Positions 1,793 through 55,222 of a DNA stretch of 64,000 nucleotides are shown piece by piece. Positions within the stretch are counted from its first letter, which is position 1. Each line of letters begins with the position of its first letter. The notes under the pieces are model-generated. The model made no database searches, was not told where the DNA came from, and saw only the letters and a list, made by a program, of their open reading frames with translations. A program made the position numbers and the translations under genes. Source of the DNA: Symbiotaphrina buchneri (lineage: Eukaryota > Ascomycota > Symbiotaphrinales > Symbiotaphrinaceae); the NCBI GenBank assembly GCA_001599915.1, contig BCIG01000008.1, forward strand, positions 186,001-250,000. The letters run 5' to 3'.

Positions 1793-4021
1793 ACAGGCAG
1801 TGTCTTTTGATTTCTTGCTCAAGTGCTTTGCGCTTCTGGTGCCGGGTGTGCAGCGTTATGTAATGCATGTGATTGTTAAGCGGACGGTCAGACAGAGGAG
1901 AAGCCGCAGCAAATTGTTTTTGACGTTCTTGTATACCCATTTCCATCTTAATCTTCTCATTGACATTCGCCTTTGCTCGTCAAGGCTTGCAGGGGCTGTT
2001 GAATTCGCATCTCCTTCCTAATTCAGCTATCGGCATTCGACGGAGTTCAAGCTGCCTATGCTATCGTTTTCTGTTTTAACTCTGGCCGTCGGAGTCATTC
2101 TGTTCTCAGGTAATTATGCTTGAGACAAGAAGCGTGGAATTTTGAGATATTGTGCGGCAAGGCAGACAGACAGATATTTACGTTCAAATTGCGCACCGCC
2201 CCTTTGCATCCGGTTCCCCCTGAAACATCTCACGTCGCTTCCTCTTCGTTGGCTAGCTTGCATCTGCTACGAAGTGTTGCTTTGGCTAGAGTCGACTATT
2301 GCGCCTTCCGCATGGCTTCTTTGTCCCTTGGAGTGCGTGGAGTCAGACATCCATGCCATTCCAGTTACAATGCTGTTGCAATGGCCGGGTTCTGAGAACG
2401 CATTGGGATGAAGAGCGTGCCCTCCACGATGAGGCTGGGACCTTATGGAAGGGCTATCGCGCATGTTCGAACTGTTTCGTGGTGTGGCGAACAGCAAGAG
2501 CCACGAGTTCAAGCATCCACATCGTTTTTCCCTCTTGTTGTATGGCCATCGGCTATTGCTATCGCATGGAAAGGCTGGAGCCGTTTAGAGCGCGGACGGG
2601 AAGGAACAGACTGGCAGGGCTGGCTCGCAATTAGAAGAGGAGGGGGAGGTTGTCATCTTCCGCTGTCGTCGAATTGTGAATAGCCACGGGTAGAATTTTC
2701 TTCTAGATTACAAACTGAAAGGATAAACGGCTCTTCTGTTTTGCGTGTGCGGCTAGATGTGAATGTAGAAATCGTGAAATTGGTGGTTTGTGTGGGGTGA
2801 GAGTGATTGTGACTGTGGGTGAACCCGACGGTCCTGAGTTGCGGACTGTCAATTTCTGATTGGGAAAGGGGATTTAGGGGGGGGAGATTGACAGTCCCGA
2901 CATGCAATCCCAGGCTCTGATAGAGGTCTGCAGTCCAAGATAAGATCGAGAGTGATTCTAAAAGATAATAATCTCTACGTCTATCCTGTGGTCTTACCAG
3001 ACCATGAATAAGTTGTACGGAGTAAATTGACCTACAGTCCCCATTTCTGGGACTGCTGGTCATTGACAGTCCAAGCGAGAAAGTCAGTCCGGGACTGTCA
3101 ATGGCTATATCCTGATGGACTTATTCAACATATATACACTTTCAGTGAGGGTACAGTAGTCAGATCTGGTATTCGAATGGAGATTCTCCAGGAGTGATCT
3201 GGAGAAGGAGAGTGTGATTTAGTTTATAGCACGTCTCAAAAATATAAAGGCTGTTTCGAGGTGCTCTCATCATCGAAAGAGGTCTATCTGACCTACAGTC
3301 CGGGCTTTGGGACTGTCGGTCATTGACAGTCCAAGCGAGAAAGGCAGTCCGGGACTGTCTATCACACACATTCTGATGAACGCATTCAGCACGATATCCA
3401 TGTCCAATGAGGGTGCATCAGTCAGATGAAGTGGTAGTATTTGGATGGAAATTATGCAGACGTATCCGGGGCGGGAGAGGACGGTTTGCTTTACGACGTG
3501 CTTTAGTTATGCCTTAGGAATGGGAATGGTTTCGAGAGGTCTATCTGAATCACAGTCCGCTTTTTGGGACTGTCGGTCATTGACAGTCCAAGGGAGAAAG
3601 ACAGTCCGGGACTGTCAATCACAACATCCTGACAGGAATTTAATAGATCAATCAACAGACCAATTGGTTTCGGACGGAGTGTATTGAAACGTTGTAATTT
3701 TTCGAGATTGAATCATGGATTGGTTCTGAAGGTGTGATTGTCTACGTACAACCTTCAGTGGGAGCTGGTGGGGTGGCTTTCAGGGGCTCAGGGGTTTAGG
3801 GGCCCGCGCAGTAGCAGCACCAGCAGCAGTCTAGATCTGGGAAAGTGAAGTGCTGATGGTCAGCAATTTCTGCAGATTTTCGTTTCTGGCAACGTAATGG
3901 TTGTCTACTAACTTCAAGAAATCACAGTCTATCAGCATATCAGAAGATGCTCCTAAAAATGCAAATGCTATGCGCTACCCGATCTGCGCAGGGTAGGATG
4001 ACGAGACTGAGATATGCACAT
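1793..4021. other. Intergenic region between convergent kinase tail and NOC2
   Basis: About 2.2 kb without a convincing gene. The short open frames on both strands have no family signature and no splice logic. The right half (about 2.8-3.64 kb) holds the repeat array described separately. The rest is probably 3' UTR of the two convergent genes plus unique spacer. Confidence 0.6.
2801..3640. repeat. Tandem array of ~260 bp units carrying inverted GGACTGT half-sites
   Basis: The string cattgacagtcca starts at 3061, 3321 and 3578, so the period is 260 then 257 bp. Sequence between these points is recognisably homologous: shared gtctatctga, gagggt(a/g)ca, cctga and ttcgag(a/g) blocks in the same order. 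A more decayed copy appears upstream, around 2801-3060. Each unit core contains the 7-mer GGACTGT or its complement ACAGTCC about five times in alternating orientation. For example, ggactgtc at 3310-3317 pairs with gacagtcc at 3325-3332 across a 7-nt loop. There is no open frame common to the units. It could be a local minisatellite, a relic of a non-coding mobile element, or an array of protein-binding sites. Confidence 0.75.
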
Positions 4022-6521
4022 CTACTCTTCTTCATCCTCGTCCTCATCCTCATCCTGCACTTCATCCTCTTCAGACTCGAACCCTTCGCTCTCTCCCTCT
4101 TCCTCAACTTCCACTCCATCCATGCCATTAGCCCTCTCCCTTTCGCGCTCTTCCCTGTCTTGCTTCCTTTTCCGTTCCTCCTCTCTTCTTCCCTCCTCAA
4201 CCATCTTCTCCTTCTCCTCTCTCAGTTTCCTCTGGCCCACCACGAAAGCTCCGAGAGGCGACTTCTCCCACTCCACATCCTTCAAGAAAGCCTCAACCTG
4301 TGCACGATCATTGGGCGCAAACTCCACCTTCGCCCTCCGCTCCTCGATCCAGCGTGAATTGGACTCGAGTTTCTGCACCACAAGCGAGATGGCCGAGTTG
4401 ATCTTGTTGTTCTTGTTACCGCCATTCTTCGAAGAAACCTCCTTCAGCCAGCGTTTCAGCATGACGAGAACCGGGAGGGTCAGCTCGGGAAAGGCGATGT
4501 TCTTGCTCCACAGTACGAAGAATTCTGCCAAGAGCTCGGCAACCTGCTCGCCTACGCCATCTTGATAAACACGAGTGCGAAGGTAGCTTTTGGGAGCGCG
4601 AATTGAGGTCGCGAAATCCAGAGGCTTGAGAGTCGACGGCTTTGGCGGCTTCTTCATCTCGGCGGAATTCAGCACTTCAAGCAAAGCTGGTGCGAGTGGT
4701 ATGTATGTCCCAGTCGAGAGGGAGATCCGCAGCAAGGACCGGAAGAGCTGGAAGCGGAGTGGAAAGTATTGTGCTGTTGGGATCAGGCGCATTGTCCCTA
4801 GAGTGACCTGGACCACAGGATAGATGAGTGGTCGCAGCGGCGACTCCTTGCCAGCTTCGGCCTCACGAATACCAACGCAATGTGCGGAGAGTACACGAGA
4901 CCAGAAGTCCAGCGAATGAACATATTGCCAATTGTACACCAGCTTGTATGATTCCCGTTGAAACCCAGTCAGCTTTTGATACCAAGAAGTGGTTGTAAGC
5001 GTCATACCTTTGTAGGCTTCGTTATGCTACTCCTCAGATGTATGGCTAATTGACGGATGAAAGTGAAACCGGTGGTATAGCCGACCGTCGGATCAAGCCC
5101 CCATAATTCAGCCGCAGAGTTCTTCATCAAGTTCACCCCCGAGATTGTATGGACGGTGGTATTCCGACTGCCCTTCACTAGGCCTTGATATACTGATTTG
5201 AGAACCATCTCCTTGAGCCCAGGATCACCGATGACGGCCAATTTCCGGATGACCAAGAATGCTGTCACACGGGTTGCTTCTGTACTGGCAGAGTCCGACC
5301 AAGTGTCGACCAGGGTTCTAGTGATATCGCGCAGCAATTTCCGGAATTGAAGGAGATATGGCAGGAGTGGAATGAAAGCAGAAAGTGTGAGTTTCAGTGT
5401 AGGCGCATCGGAGAGGTTCGTCAAAAGATGGTTCACAGAAGCAGCATGCGATTTGAGGAGGGGCGTGAGGGTTCGATATTTCTTCGACTCAGTAGAAATG
5501 CGTCTAGATCAACGTAAGTTTCGCTCTAAAACTCGACCAAAACAGCCACTTACACCTTGCCAGAGGCGCTCTCTTTGACTGGTAGATGGTGATTCAGCAC
5601 ATCCGGCAGATGCTTCAGCGTCGTGATCAGTAGCTCATGGTAGACTGCAATTGTTAGCCTTGCTTGACCGTACGCTTATAACGTGGACATACCATTCGGG
5701 TCCGATATTTTGTACTTGTAGCCCTTGTCTTCATCCTCATTGAGGTGAGCAGCTGCTCGGAAAGCCAGAACTACTTGCCGAGCGGCACGAAGGGAATGTT
5801 GTTCTGCTAGTGCCGTCTTCCACTTCTGCACCATGGCCATAGTGACATCTGCAGAATCCCTTCCCTCCTCAACATCTTCTTCGTCTTCGGCTTTGCTTTT
5901 CTTGTCCTTCTTGCGTTTCTTCTTTGGCTTTTCTTCCTCACCGCTACTTAGCTCGTCGACCTCCGCCAAATCAGCGTTCTCCTCGAAATCTAGCAGCTCG
6001 GCGTCATTCTCCTGAAGATATTTGTAGAATTCGGGATCTTTTTCGGCCAAGGCTTCGAGATCTCCCTTATGAGTGTCAAAGTCATCTTCCTCCTCGGAAA
6101 TAGGTTCACTATCACTTCGAACCGCGTTCTCCTCCAGTGAGCCGACAGACGAAGCATCATCCTCTGCCCCGGGTTCGGTCCTCTTCCGTTTGCCGATCTT
6201 TTGAGAGACCTCTTTGCTCTTCTTCGAAGCCTTCGTTGACTTCTTCACCGGTGCCTCTGGTATGTCAAATCCTCCCTGAAAGAAGTCATCCACACTCATC
6301 TCTCCATAAGGATTCTCGTCTCCAGCAGGTTCGGGCTTCGAAGTGCCATCTGATGCCTTGCCAAAGGTCTCCTGCCGGTCTTTCGCATCTCTAGCCTTTC
6401 TTTTCTCCTTCTGTTGATGGCGCTGTTTGATCTTTGCGAACTCTTTTCGGCGACCTAGGGTATCCTTTAGGTGATTCTTCTCGAACTTTTTGGTCGCCTT
6501 CTTATTCTGTCCGCCCGCCAT
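4022..6521 (-). CDS. NOC2: Nucleolar complex protein 2 (Noc2/Rebelote), 60S ribosome biogenesis
   Basis: Four exons on the minus strand: 6521-5693, 5644-5554, 5503-5008 and 4942-4022, about 778 aa. Introns 5645-5692 (48 nt) and 5504-5553 (50 nt) have gtatgt and gtaagt donors. The third, 4943-5007 (65 nt), has a gctgac branch, but its acceptor is less certain. The first quarter is lysine and acid rich, typical of nucleolar proteins. The conserved Noc2 core follows, with YHELLITTLKHLPD, then LWGLDPTVGYTTGF and VYNWQYVHSLDFWSRVLS, and the protein ends in an acidic Glu/Asp tail. Noc2 pairs with Noc1 and then Noc3 to move pre-60S particles from nucleolus to nucleoplasm. ATG at 6521 was chosen because MAGGQNKKATKKFEKNHLKDT is the usual basic start. 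It is divergent from VPS28. Confidence 0.93.
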
Positions 6522-23741: not shown

Positions 23742-26700
23742 TCAAGGTCTCGACTTCGGACTAAACGGCTCCGGAGGCTCGATTCCCTGCAGCTTCGCCG
23801 GGTCAGGCGTGTTGGCACGGGTGCTCGCCGTCGAAGCTTCTCTGTATCGTTCGACCAGTTCCGAGATTTTCGGGAGGAGCTCCTGGATACGGAAGGGTTT
23901 GGAGACGACATCGTCCATGCCAGCCTGCAGGGCGCCCTCGATCTGTTCGGTTCGAGCGTTGGCCGTGACGGCGATGATGGGGACGTGGCGGACGACTTTG
24001 CCGTCGCGCTGGAACTCGCGGATCTTCTTCGCGCACGTGATGCCGTCCATGATGGGCATTTCTTGGTCCATCAGGATCACGCTGAGGTCGATGCCGTCTT
24101 GCTCACTGCCGTGCCAGAATTTGGACTCTTGCAGCTTGTCGAGGGCTTCGACTCCGTGGTTGGCCAGGTGCACCTCACACCCTAGATTGCGCAGTTGTCT
24201 GGACAGCACTTTCTGGTTCACCAGATTGTCCTCGACGATCAGGACCTTGAAGTTGTCATAAGTCTTTGATGCGGTATTCGACCCGTCGATGGACCTGTGC
24301 TTATTGGAAGAACCTTTGCGTGGCATCATACGCAGGGTCTCTGGGGTGGTGGGCTGGGGTGCTCGTCTGCATTGAATGTAGAATGCAAATGTACTCCCCT
24401 TGCCACTTTCCGAAGCCACACCAATTTCTCCGCCTTGAAGTTCCACCAGCTCTCTGCTTATAAAGAGACCGAGGCCTGATCCACCGTACTGCACGTGAGT
24501 ACGAGGGCTAGCTTGAGAGAAGCGTAGGAAAAGGAGTTTCTTCTCGTCTTCAGATAGGCCTCGACCAGTATCCCTGACAGCGAAATGGATGTAAACGATC
24601 TCATCGTCACCCCAATCCCCTCCTACGGCAATATCAACATTGCCACGTTTTGATGGTACGTATGTAACAGGTGGATTCGCGGAGATGGCCCTCTCCTCAC
24701 CCTCTGACGGTCTACGCAAAGACGCACCGATGCTGACGGAGATTGACCTCTTATCTTCTGTGGTCGTGAATTTGATTGCATTCGTAGTGAGGTTGATGAG
24801 AACTTGTAGAGCCCTTGACGGATCACATTTTACGTGATCAACTTTGAGCTTGTGGTAAGATTCGTCCACGTCAAAATGCATTTTGATGTCATTTGTTTCC
24901 ATCTCACTCTCGAACATTTTCAATGCACGTTGTGCAACAGTGATCGGCTGGACAGTCACCGGGGTCACAACCAGAAGTGCTGAGTCCAGTTTGGAAAGTG
25001 TCAGAATATCGTCCACGATACGCTTTTGGTGCTGCGCGCAAAGGATGATTGTGTGAGCAGCATCCAGGTTGTCGGAGACTAATTGCGCAGCCAGATAGCT
25101 GGTCTTCTTGGCTGTTGCACGCCATTGTGTCAATGATGTCGTTATCTCATCCGCGGATTGAAGGATGGCGCTCAGTGGGTTCCGCATTTCATGACTGGTG
25201 ATGTCGATGAAGTTCTCCTGTTGTCTCTTTAATTCCACAGCTTCCTCCATCCGTTTCTTCTGGAAGTCTTCGGCCCATTTTTGTTGACTGATATTGGTCA
25301 ATGCTCCAAAAACCCTTTTGAGTGTGCCATCCGGGTTCTTTTCCGGATATGCCGAAGCTAATACCCATGTCTCTCCTTTGGTCCCGTTTCTACCCTCCCA
25401 AGGTGTTTTGAACCTGAACTCCGCCGATATGGGTACTTTGTCCTGGGTGAGATCCCGCCACAGTTGTTCGACCTTGGCTCTGTCTTCGTCCTTGACCGAA
25501 TTCATCCAAGTATCCGTACTATTTTCTTCTCTGGGATGTCTTGTAATTTCGTACCAGGCGTCATTGCAAAATATGATGCGGCCATCTGAATTGGCGATGA
25601 ACATGCCAACGGGTGCAAATTCTGCCATTCTCGTGAATTTGATCTCACTTTCCACAGCTTCCTGAGTTCGTGCTTTCAGCTGTTCCGAGAGCTCGATGCG
25701 GTCGAGCGCTGCTAACCGAGCGGCTCGTTGCCCCCGACGAATTTCTTCTTCGAACAGAACAACAGAAGCCATTGAGGTGGCCAATTGGCGACTGAGCAGC
25801 TGAATGAAGAGGTTGTAGTCATCGTCGTACGGTCTTCTGGGATTGATCCCCATGACCAGAAAACCGAGCACCGTGTCGCCTGTCGTGGGATGTATGGGGC
25901 ATACCACCGCAGCGGTGCAAGCATCACCAAAGCCGCGCCAGTGTATGCCCTCAATGAGGGATGACGGTAGACTGTCATCGGACGTCTGGAGGAGAATGGG
26001 TCGATCAGCATTCAAGGCATCCCGAAACATAGGACCGAACCCTTCTGTAGAAGACCTCAAATCCAGTTGTGGTGGTGCTGCCATGTGACCTTCTGGAACG
26101 CCCAAAGCACCTTCCAGAATACACTGTTTGATACCAAAGACTGAACTCGACGTCGTTGAGGTGGTGTCACTGTCGGCATCATCCAGCACACTGTACAACA
26201 GTACGAAAGGCGTGTCATATTCATTATACTCCAAGCCTTTCAAGACCTGACCCCAGAAGCTCTTCACTTCACGTGCGGCAGCAGTACGTTCACCCACCTC
26301 CCGGAGCGTGAGCATTCGCCTCTCGGCAATTTTTCGTCGAGTTTTCTCAAAAGCAGGATTGTAAAGCCCAACTACAGACCCATCTTCGCCGACCAAGGGA
26401 ATGATGGACCAGGAGAAGTATGTTTCTTCGAGAAATCCTGCTCTTTTGATGAAAAGGCAATCATCATCCTATAGCTAGTAAGCAGTGTCCACGAAAGCGG
26501 GTATCCACGGTACGTAATCACCTTCATTGTTGCCTGCCCTGTGGTAAATGCGCTCTGGAAGACTTCCTCCACCTCCGTCCAAATCTCAGACCAGGCTTCT
26601 TTGTAACTCTGCCCCATCAGCTGGGGATGTTTCTGACCGGCCAACAAGATGTAGGCTTCATTATAGATTGCGATAAGATCCGGACCCCAATACATCGCGG

Positions 26701-50999: not shown

Positions 51000-52170
51000 A
51001 TGTCGAGCACTACCACCATCACGGCGAGCAAGCCCAACATTGGCGTCTACACAAACCCCGCACATGAGTTGTGGATAGGGGAAGCGGAACCAGCCCTTGA
51101 GACCGTGAAGAAGGGCGAGGACCTAAAGGAGGGGGAGGTCACCATTGGGATAAAGAGCACCGGAATTTGCGGGTATGCCATGTTCTTCACCCTCGTCTGG
51201 TGATCGATGACTGACTTCATGCGCGTTAAGCTCGGACGTGCATTTCTGGCATGCGGGGTGCATAGGGCCTATGATAGTCGAGGATACCCACATTCTAGGA
51301 CACGAGTCCGCTGGAGTCATTCTTGCCGTCCATCCTTCCGTGACTCATCTCAAAGTTGGAGACCGGGTGGCTATCGAACCAAACGTAATCTGCGGTCAAT
51401 GTGAACCATGCTTGACAGGCCGATACAATGGATGCGAGCGTGTGCAATTTCTATCAACACCCCCGGTCCCGGGACTGTTACGCCGATACGTGAACCATCC
51501 AGCCATGTGGTGCCACAAGATTGGCGACATGTCGTACGAGGACGGCGCCCTGCTTGAGCCTTTGAGCGTTTCACTGGCCGCTGTAGAACGGTCAGGTGTC
51601 AAGCTAGGGGATCCAGTGTTGATTTGCGGCGCCGGCCCGATCGGATTGATAACGCTCCTGTCATGCCGCGCCGCCGGTGCTGAACCTATCGTCATTACTG
51701 ATATTGATGAGGGTCGTCTGAACTTTGCGAAGAAGCTGGTGCCTTCCGTGCAAACCCACCAGGTGACGAGGGGGCAGACGGAGGAGGAATTTGCCAAGGC
51801 AATCATCACGAAGATGGACGGAATAGAGCCAGCAATAGCCCTTGAGTGCACTGGTGTCGAGAGCAGCGTGGCCTCTGCGATCTGGTCCGTCAAATTTGGG
51901 GGCAAGGTCTTCGTCATCGGCGTCGGCAAGAACGAAGTGAAAATACCGTTCATGCGCCTGAGTACCCGCGAGATTGATCTGCAGTTCCAATACAGATATT
52001 GCAACACGTGGCCAAGAGCCATCAGGTTGGTTAAGAGTGTGCTCATCAACATGAAACAACTGGTAACGCATCGCTTCGATATTGAGGATGCCATCAAGGC
52101 CTTCAACACTGCGGCGGATCCGAAGACAGGCGCCATCAAGGTTCAGATCAAGAGCGACAGGGAGGAATAG
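51000..52170 (+). CDS. ladA: L-arabinitol 4-dehydrogenase (NAD+)
   Basis: Exons 51000-51172 and 51231-52170 (58-nt intron with gtatgc donor) give 370 aa, the usual length. This zinc-dependent medium-chain dehydrogenase oxidises L-arabinitol to L-xylulose, the second step of fungal L-arabinose catabolism. Catalytic-zinc ligands are seen in STGICGSDVHFW and GHESAG. The structural-zinc lobe is [15 protein letters not shown]. The nucleotide fold is [14 protein letters not shown], followed by [10 protein letters not shown], whose Asp-Ile-Asp fits NAD+ rather than NADP+ use. [15 protein letters not shown] and TGAIKVQI complete a near family-standard C-terminus. The N-terminus [19 protein letters not shown] also matches ladA/lad1 enzymes better than xylitol or sorbitol dehydrogenases. 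Cytosolic. It converges with a hydroxyacid dehydrogenase. Confidence 0.95.
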
Positions 52171-52378: not shown

Positions 52379-53478
52379 CTAATTGATCCGCTTGAGCAGG
52401 TCTTTCCCCTCGATCCAGCGCTCCACATTCTCTGCAGTCTCTTCATACCACTGATGGATGACGTGTTCTTCTACGTAGCCCATGTGCGGCGACAGCAAGA
52501 CTTTGGATCTGCCGTTTGTTCCCCAATCCGTCGTTCGCCATTTGCTGTCCAAAGGCAGAGGCTCGATGTCGAAGACATCCAACGCTGCGCCCCTGATTCG
52601 ACCCTTTTCCAAAACATTCAACAAGGCTTCTTCGCGAATCAAGGGCCCTCTGGACGTGTTGACAATATACGCTGTGGGCTTCATTAAGGCGAGTTCCTGT
52701 GCATCCACAATATTCCTAGAGCGATCAGACAGCACGTAGTGTACGCTCAAGATATCAGCATTCTTGAACAACTCCTCTTTGGTCACAGCTTTGAATGTCT
52801 TGTTGCCATCTTGATCTTCCGCCTGCAAAGCAAATGCTCTGGCTTGCTCATCAGCTTTGTGCTGGTCTAGGTTCGAAGACCAGGCAATGATCTTCATGCC
52901 AAAAGCTAGATGGCCAATCCTTGCGGCATGTGCACCTAGTCTTCCCAACCCAAGTATTCCGAGCGTCTTGCCCTTCAGGCCAGTAGCTAAGTTGGTTTCC
53001 CAACCCCCGCTCTTTACGACGCCGTCATCTTCAGCGATGTTCCTCGCTATGCCTAGGATCAACGCCCATGCATGCTCCGTGGTAGAATCCAGGCTTGCCG
53101 CTGGGTGGCTGGTGCCAGATCTGCCCTTCCCATTGGTTCCACACACTGCGATGCCCAGCTCTTTGGCAGCTTTCATATCGATTGACGCGTTCCCCATCCC
53201 TGTAGTCAACAGGAGCTTCAGGTTGGGAAGGTTGGCTAGCAGCTCCTTTGGGAATGCTGTTCGTTCCCTCATGGTCGAGATGATGGTGAAAGGCCTGAGG
53301 CGCTCCACAAGCTTCTTCCTGACATCGTCGGTGGTTGATGGGTGGGAAAAGGGTGGCAGTGTGTCCCTGTATTCCGTGATCTGGAGGCGGTCAGGGTATA
53401 TTATATAGTTTCGAAGTGTTGTCGTGCCACTCCCTGGTAGTCATCCAGGATAGCCAAATCGATGGTCTGCGCCGCCAT
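52379..53478 (-). CDS. D-isomer-specific 2-hydroxyacid dehydrogenase, N-terminus spliced or frameshifted
   Basis: Main exon 53380-52379. ATG at 53478 begins MAAQTIDLAILDDYQG, the usual first strand. The nucleotide-binding domain has LGILGLGRLGAHAARI. Active-site elements are VNTSRGPLI (Arg), the acidic residue in LDVFDIEPLP, and SPHMGYV (His). The family reduces 2-oxo acids or oxidises D-2-hydroxy acids with NAD(H). The specific substrate is unknown. The N-terminal join is the oddity. A 50-nt intron (53381-53430; gtggca donor, ctgac branch, cag acceptor) splices in frame to give 349 aa. However, the removed piece itself reads VARQHFET then YPDRLQ, which looks like normal family sequence split by a frame change in an AT-only stretch near 53395-53410. 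So either the intron is real or the gene carries a small indel. Confidence 0.85.
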
Positions 53479-54322: not shown

Positions 54323-54670
54323 ATGGTTGCTGAATCCTTCTCACCTCCTCCAGGGCCTCCTCCTGGCTGGCGAGACCGCTTCCCTGATCCTGCTCAATCT
54401 TCGACTTCCAACAATAGTTTTGCTCCGCCTCCTGGTCCACCACCTTCCAAACCGCCCACAGGACAGCAGGATGGGACCAACGATGAGCCACCAGCATATC
54501 ATGATTGGACCGTAGTCCCAGACACCTCGGAATTCCCGCCTCCACCGAGCCTGGGTTATGAGGCCAGTCCGTCCGGCAATGCTCCACTCTCTGAGGCGGA
54601 TCGTGCACATGAGTGGTGTCAGCAGAACCCTCTTTGGGCTCCGAGGACTCTAACCCCCGAGGAGACCTAG
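54323..54670 (+). pseudogene. 5' remnant of a fungal proline-rich (probably SPRY-domain) protein gene
   Basis: Open frame of 115 aa from ATG 54323. It has PPPGPPPGW repeats, then PPAYHDWTVVPDTSEFPPPPSLGYE and DRAHEWCQQNPLWAPRTLTPEE, ending abruptly at TAG 54668-54670. From memory, this order of motifs is the N-terminal third of a conserved Pezizomycotina protein that continues into a SPRY-like domain of about 200 residues. No such domain follows here in any frame. Instead, the next bases belong to the 3'-truncated gene on the other strand. I infer that the C-terminal part was deleted together with that of its neighbour. It might still be expressed as a short protein. Confidence 0.5.
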
Positions 54671-55222
54671 CATGACCTTGTTGCCCCCTGCAATGACTCG
54701 TAGTAAGGCCATGAGAGCTCTCGCAAACCCCTGGGAGGCAAGGTACTCCTCCTCTTCACTATCAATCAGCGAACTGAACAGGGATATTGCTTCCCGAATT
54801 ATACCGTCCTCGTATGACACGGCAGCAATTTTGGAGATAGTTGTGTATATTTGTGAGGAGGCCGCGAAAGCCAAGCATGGATGCGGGTATGGGGCTCTCG
54901 ACTCTTCGTCCAACAAAGCTGTCAATCGTTGGAGGCACATTCGGATCGTTTCGGCAGCGTTTGCATTCGAAGCGATGGACGGTGTGTCCCTCCATATTTG
55001 CTACTCCAGCCTTAGCACAAGCTCATCTCAGCAGAAAGAGGGCATCTACCACCAACTGATTATAATACCGTTTGAACTGGGTCAACCGTTGTTGCGGGTT
55101 CTTCGCTGTTGATACCTTGGCCGCGGGGGACTGACCGATACCACCTATGAGTTTTGCCCACTTTAAAGGACGGTCAGTCCACTGTTCAGTGGGGTTCAAA
55201 GATATTGACTCACAAAATCCAT
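54650..55222 (-). pseudogene. 5' remnant of a FHIP/RAI16-like gene (FTS-Hook-FHIP complex)
   Basis: Three exons: 55222-55214 (only 9 nt, MDF), 55160-55050 and 55000-54650. Introns are 53 nt (gtgagt donor, actgacc branch) and 49 nt. The result is 156 aa: MDFWAKLIGGIGQ, then NPQQRLTQFKRYYNQLV, RMCLQRLTALLDEESR, LFSSLIDSEEEEYLASQGFA and ALMALLRVIAGGNK. This helical pattern fits the N-terminal end of FHIP proteins, which link early endosomes to dynein through Hook and normally run to 800-1000 residues. Here the frame hits a stop four codons after entering the 3' end of the facing gene. Exon joins are clean, so the 5' part was functional recently. The FHIP name rests on recalled family pattern, not on a search. 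Confidence 0.55.

Follow-up and report, generated by a model that had tools for sequence, protein, structure and literature searches.

A probable balanced exchange that divided an FHIP gene and a second gene in Symbiotaphrina buchneri

In the draft assembly of Symbiotaphrina buchneri, two genes are each found in two pieces on two contigs, and the arrangement is most probably explained by one balanced rearrangement that split both genes within coding sequence and exchanged their ends. The layout is mirrored: contig C8 (BCIG01000008.1) carries two 5' pieces that converge on a single point, and contig C14 carries two 3' pieces that diverge from a single point. Because of this mirrored 5'/5' and 3'/3' arrangement, we read the two sites as both products of one reciprocal exchange. 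A single break-and-swap at two sites would have halved an FHIP gene and a gene whose Pro-rich product has a PPxY-type sequence and a C-terminal SPRY domain. The event appears to be a feature of the living strain as well as of its assembly.

We analyzed a window of 64,000 nucleotides (C8:186001-250000) and searched the genome from which it comes, a draft assembly of 23,383,419 bases (23.4 Mb) in 82 contigs, of which C8 has 798,597 bases and C14 has 744,169. Scans of genome contigs and viral contigs found no relatives of this genome, and a 5.8S rRNA search was without a match. Only two single N's occurred in the 208,979 bases of DNA examined, and neither was close to a junction. Coordinates of the features in the window are collected in Table 1. 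Note that the boundary at 54664 was chosen in the bookkeeping of the reading frames, and its true position may differ by a few bases.

Table 1. Features at the C8 junction (positions in the window)
Feature	Position	Strand	Basis or continuation
FHIP exon 1, 9 nt	55214..55222	-	Open frame; GT-AG intron after
FHIP exon 2	55050..55181	-	Open frame
FHIP exon 3, cut	54665..55000	-	PF10257 1-61; continuation on C14, L009:4794 to 7187, plus
FHIP frame tail read into the other gene, to stop	54650..54664	-	Frame reading
Pro-rich 5' piece, 114 codons, PPxY-type sequence	54323..54664	+	Open frame from ATG
Pro-rich frame tail read through into FHIP sequence, to stop	54665..54670	+	Frame reading
C8 junction	54664..54665 (C8:240664/240665)	.	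Matching C14 junction at about C14:542794-542797 (L009:4794-4797)

Four gene pieces at two junctions

The minus-strand gene in the window starts at 55222, has GT-AG introns, and ends in a stop at 54650. Its 163-aa product is FHIP/RAI16-like, scoring 43.5 bits against PF10257 (cut-off 24.9); the match covers positions 1-61 of the 358 in the profile, and 10 more residues follow position 61. Most of the PF10257 domain is absent from this piece. Searched against the PDB, the piece returned no FHIP match and two weak, chance-like nucleotidase matches (E 0.59 and 0.76). On the plus strand, the Pro-rich frame opens with an ATG at 54323 and closes with a stop whose last base is 54670; positions 54650-54670 (21 bp) are shared by both frames. 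An earlier note on this DNA had described two genes cut at one point, the FHIP-like identity of the minus-strand gene with its start, 9-nt first exon and introns, and the 21-bp overlap; all of these were borne out, the common cut point also by the matching junction on C14. The same note held that both proteins lack their C-terminal bulk. This is directly visible for FHIP. The 115-aa plus-strand protein matched no Pfam family at E 0.1, so its truncation is not demonstrable from the protein itself, and the matching C14 junction is what suggests it. The sole match of the Pro-rich piece in the genome is itself.

Two genes adjacent to the Pro-rich piece may serve as synteny markers. An L-arabinitol 4-dehydrogenase-like gene lies near it at window positions 51238-52170 on the plus strand (PDB 3m6i, E 5.2e-163), and a D-2-hydroxyacid dehydrogenase-like gene flanks it at 52379-53308 on the minus strand.

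The remainder of the FHIP gene was recovered from the genome, a search for the missing 3' parts that the earlier note had proposed and that proved decisive. At E 1, PF10257 matched at exactly two places, C8:240695-240877 (minus strand, profile positions 1-61) and C14:542791-543795 (plus strand, positions 67-358), which places the 3' half at C14 542.8-543.8 kb. Their complementary coverage of the profile is why we consider them to be halves of one gene. There was no third FHIP match and no second FHIP 5' piece in the whole 23.4 Mb assembly at that threshold; with both matches accounted for, a second whole copy of the gene was discarded as an explanation. Also rejected was a missed intron that extends either gene past the junction, because the other gene occupies the way onward on each strand and the continuation of FHIP lies on C14.

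We followed the C14 pieces in L009, a stretch of C14 in which positions 4794-4797 correspond to about C14:542794-542797. The FHIP 3' piece is open from L009:4794 on the plus strand, contains one GT-AG intron (L009:5453-5503), and reaches the end of its stop codon at L009:7187. It scored 249.1 bits against PF10257 (positions 69-358; cut-off 24.9) and 38.9 bits against PF19314 (cut-off 27), with KELAA (16.1 bits) and an LTN1 repeat model (15.4 bits) below their cut-offs. Its single PDB match at E 1 was human FHIP1B, 8qat chain C, a weak one (E 0.00035) that aligns residues 62-128 of the piece with residues 212-279 of the chain.

The second C14 piece came to light through the SPRY profile PF00622, which matched the genome five times at E 1, in three cases above the cut-off. 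Of the two weaker matches, one (C14:542393-542578, minus strand, 22.4 bits) is separated by approximately 0.2 kb from the FHIP match, which lies on the other strand. The corresponding open piece runs from L009:4797 down to the end of its stop at 4050, with one intron (L009:4409-4361). By itself it scored 24.3 bits against PF00622, short of the cut-off of 26.3, and its best PDB matches were chains of RanBP10, RanBP9, and SPRYD3 (E 1.2e-06 to 9.6e-06). Thus, the FHIP and SPRY 3' pieces start at one point on C14, diverge, and run open to their stops; they overlap by 4 bases (L009:4794-4797), and the C8 pieces abut at 54664/54665. A saccharopine dehydrogenase-like gene (PF03435, PF16653) at L009:1693-3799 on the plus strand, its end at 3799 placed by eye, heads toward the SPRY piece and may be used as a further synteny marker.

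Filamentous fungi have Pro-rich SPRY proteins of the kind that the two remaining pieces would form. An exchange of this type leaves two partner pieces, and here these are the Pro-rich 5' piece and the 3' piece with SPRY; on that ground we infer a single gene, and we found no profile or homologue that covers both.

Physical break, misassembly or deletion

The reading frames across the two junctions give information on whether the exchange happened in the cell or in the computer. We tried 35 positions on C8 against 50 positions on C14, allowing anything from a gain of 6 bases to a loss of 12. When no bases were gained or lost, no position put both genes in frame; both were in frame with a net loss of 1, 4, 7, or 10 bases or a gain of 2 or 5, an argument that is void if the break coincides with an intron or is flanked by a base error. 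The net change at the breaks is small, a few bases, as judged for FHIP by profile coverage together with the frames and for the SPRY gene by the frames alone.

A purely computational misjoin neither adds nor removes bases, so the frame result speaks against misassembly. The sequence around the junctions points the same way. Within 400 bp around them, the longest common words were 10 bp in direct and 7 bp in inverted orientation, and the 10-bp word was more than 100 bp away from either junction. A blastn comparison (E 1e-3) of 74 kb of C8 (186001-260000) with 49 kb of C14 (518001-567000) gave no similarity, and each junction region had a single match in the genome. The lack of long common sequence at the junctions favors a physical break over a misassembly, and with none in the searched flanks either, recombination between repeats was set aside as the mechanism. 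The junctions would instead have formed by end-joining with the loss of a few bases.

Two reciprocal misjoins could, in principle, have swapped the ends of two intact genes that are whole in the living strain. Genes that are whole in life would yield four undamaged pieces, as observed, and the assembly is a draft in 82 contigs, some ends of which carry repeats. Yet this account needs two independent misjoins that meet at matching points, it places a plain end swap on junctions where at least one gene would fall out of frame and where no long common sequence is available, and the contig-end repeats that we sampled had no blastn match in the 4 kb around either break. As a control, we looked at three other long families, namely phosphorylase (one gene), glucan synthase (two), and dynein heavy chain N1 (one), and found all three contiguous, with one contig for each of the four genes, in what is a small sample. 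We therefore consider a doubly misjoined assembly unlikely. The earlier note had pictured a misassembly as one skipped stretch of several kb, a picture that does not fit, as two matching misjoins would be needed.

That note had itself favored the loss of both 3' halves of a convergent pair in one deletion, and the local picture at 54650-54670, taken alone, would suggest as much. The FHIP 3' half is nonetheless present on C14, adjoining a SPRY 3' half that is cut at the same point, and the divergent halves there are what the mirror product of a reciprocal exchange would look like in place of an original convergent pair. The deletion could be rescued if the C14 piece came from a second copy of the gene, against which stands the finding of just one FHIP 5' piece in the genome. 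With both 3' halves sitting on C14, a deletion is vanishingly improbable. More generally, back-to-back 3' halves elsewhere in a genome can tell a balanced exchange from a deletion scar between convergent stubs.

The balanced exchange would be a reciprocal translocation if the two contigs belong to different chromosomes, and an inversion between the breaks if they belong to one, in which case its minimum span, set by the order of the contigs, would be about 0.44 Mb or about 1.1 Mb. The tips of C8 and C14 contained no telomere array in the 1.5 kb at each end, so the two forms are indistinguishable here; a single short run resembling telomere sequence occurs at the start of C8, at base 683.

Several observations on other contigs were made in passing. 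C6 and C15 each start with a telomere array, and C3 ends with one. The first 40 bases of C5, C10, C12, and C14 are nearly identical, and a repeat is thus probably present at the ends of many contigs. The genome has two FKS-type genes, whose full-length glucan synthase domains lie at C9:494312-496765 and C31:198946-201399, each covering PF02364 1-818 of 819, in open frames of 1,741 and 1,755 aa.

Age of the break

The break looks young, judging by the sequence, because none of the four pieces is interrupted: their 3,855 coding bases contain no internal stop, and each piece keeps one frame throughout. About 3.3% of random substitutions in those bases would give a stop. The 95% upper bound on neutral divergence since the break ranges from about 2.3% down to 0.5%, for assumed values of 0 to 0.15 indels per substitution and on the assumption that no piece is still under selection.

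Consequences for FHIP and comparison with known systems

The FTS-Hook-FHIP complex links Hook and dynein to early endosomes. On C14, the 3' pieces would be separated from their own promoters, FHIP is probably disabled, and both genes would now be nonfunctional. If the exchange is in the living strain, it has probably removed the sole FHIP gene found in the assembly together with a second gene, and a Hook domain and the dynein heavy chain remain. The N-terminal Hook model HOOK_N (PF19047) matched on C17 over positions 4-107 of 146 with 37.3 bits; with the HOOK coiled-coil model PF05622, the genome search came back empty. The dynein heavy chain is also there: the DHC_N1 match falls in an open frame of 4,119 aa.

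According to published work, early-endosome binding by fungal Hook requires FTS and FHIP (PMC7649786), and the Ustilago maydis homologues bind Hok1 and are located on early endosomes (PMC4148197). A hook disruptant of Aspergillus oryzae is described as viable with reduced growth and with early-endosome motility nearly gone (PMC5693997). Since this disruptant is viable, loss of the Hook/early-endosome pathway can be survived. If the exchange is in the living strain, this fungus would offer naturally FHIP-null hyphae, and early-endosome transport could be observed in them without engineering.

The pieces could also still be in use, with FHIP working as two separate parts or through joined transcripts, and the split tolerated or fixed. 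The undamaged frames of all four pieces and an in-frame ATG 10 codons upstream of the SPRY piece would fit this. However, the cut lies within coding sequence, the 3' pieces abut and leave no intergenic room for a promoter, and the FHIP 3' piece has no in-frame ATG until approximately 110 codons in, inside the conserved domain. We regard continued use as highly unlikely. There is likewise a slim outside chance that a natural lineage has fixed the rearrangement, either with FHIP in two working pieces or with early-endosome transport rewired to let Hook and dynein do without it.

FHIP itself can be compared with Aspergillus nidulans FhipA and human FHIP1B (8qat): the PF10257 profile is covered, but here in complementary parts by a gene in two pieces on two contigs. 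For the second gene, yeast Rsp5 adaptors Ear1 and Ssh4 offer a resemblance, since they combine SPRY with a PPxY-type sequence (PMC2810449), and so would the product here if its two pieces were one protein. The PPxY-type sequence occurs once, in the Pro-rich 5' piece, and such short motifs occur by chance in Pro-rich sequence. Ear1 and Ssh4 are membrane proteins (PMC2810449), but inspection of the 115-aa piece by eye showed no membrane anchor and no long hydrophobic stretch. The resemblance is only a lead.

As a rearrangement, this is another instance of a type of event known in filamentous fungi, and its mechanism is ordinary. Balanced translocations with sequenced breakpoints are described for Trichoderma reesei Rut-C30, QM9414, and QM9978, and a breakpoint lying 1.6 kb upstream of a regulator gene has been held responsible for a phenotype in QM9978 (PMC5469131); translocation strains of Neurospora have also been reported (PMC4978912). 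As in T. reesei, where chromosome ends were exchanged, the breakpoints here are known at the sequence level; in contrast, both breaks fall within coding sequence and were read from one assembly with no unrearranged strain beside it. The case is more than routine in that an FHIP gene is involved and both junctions are located.

Elsewhere in the window, positions 23745-26468 on the minus strand encode a hybrid histidine kinase with PAS, HisKA, HATPase, and response-regulator domains in one frame.
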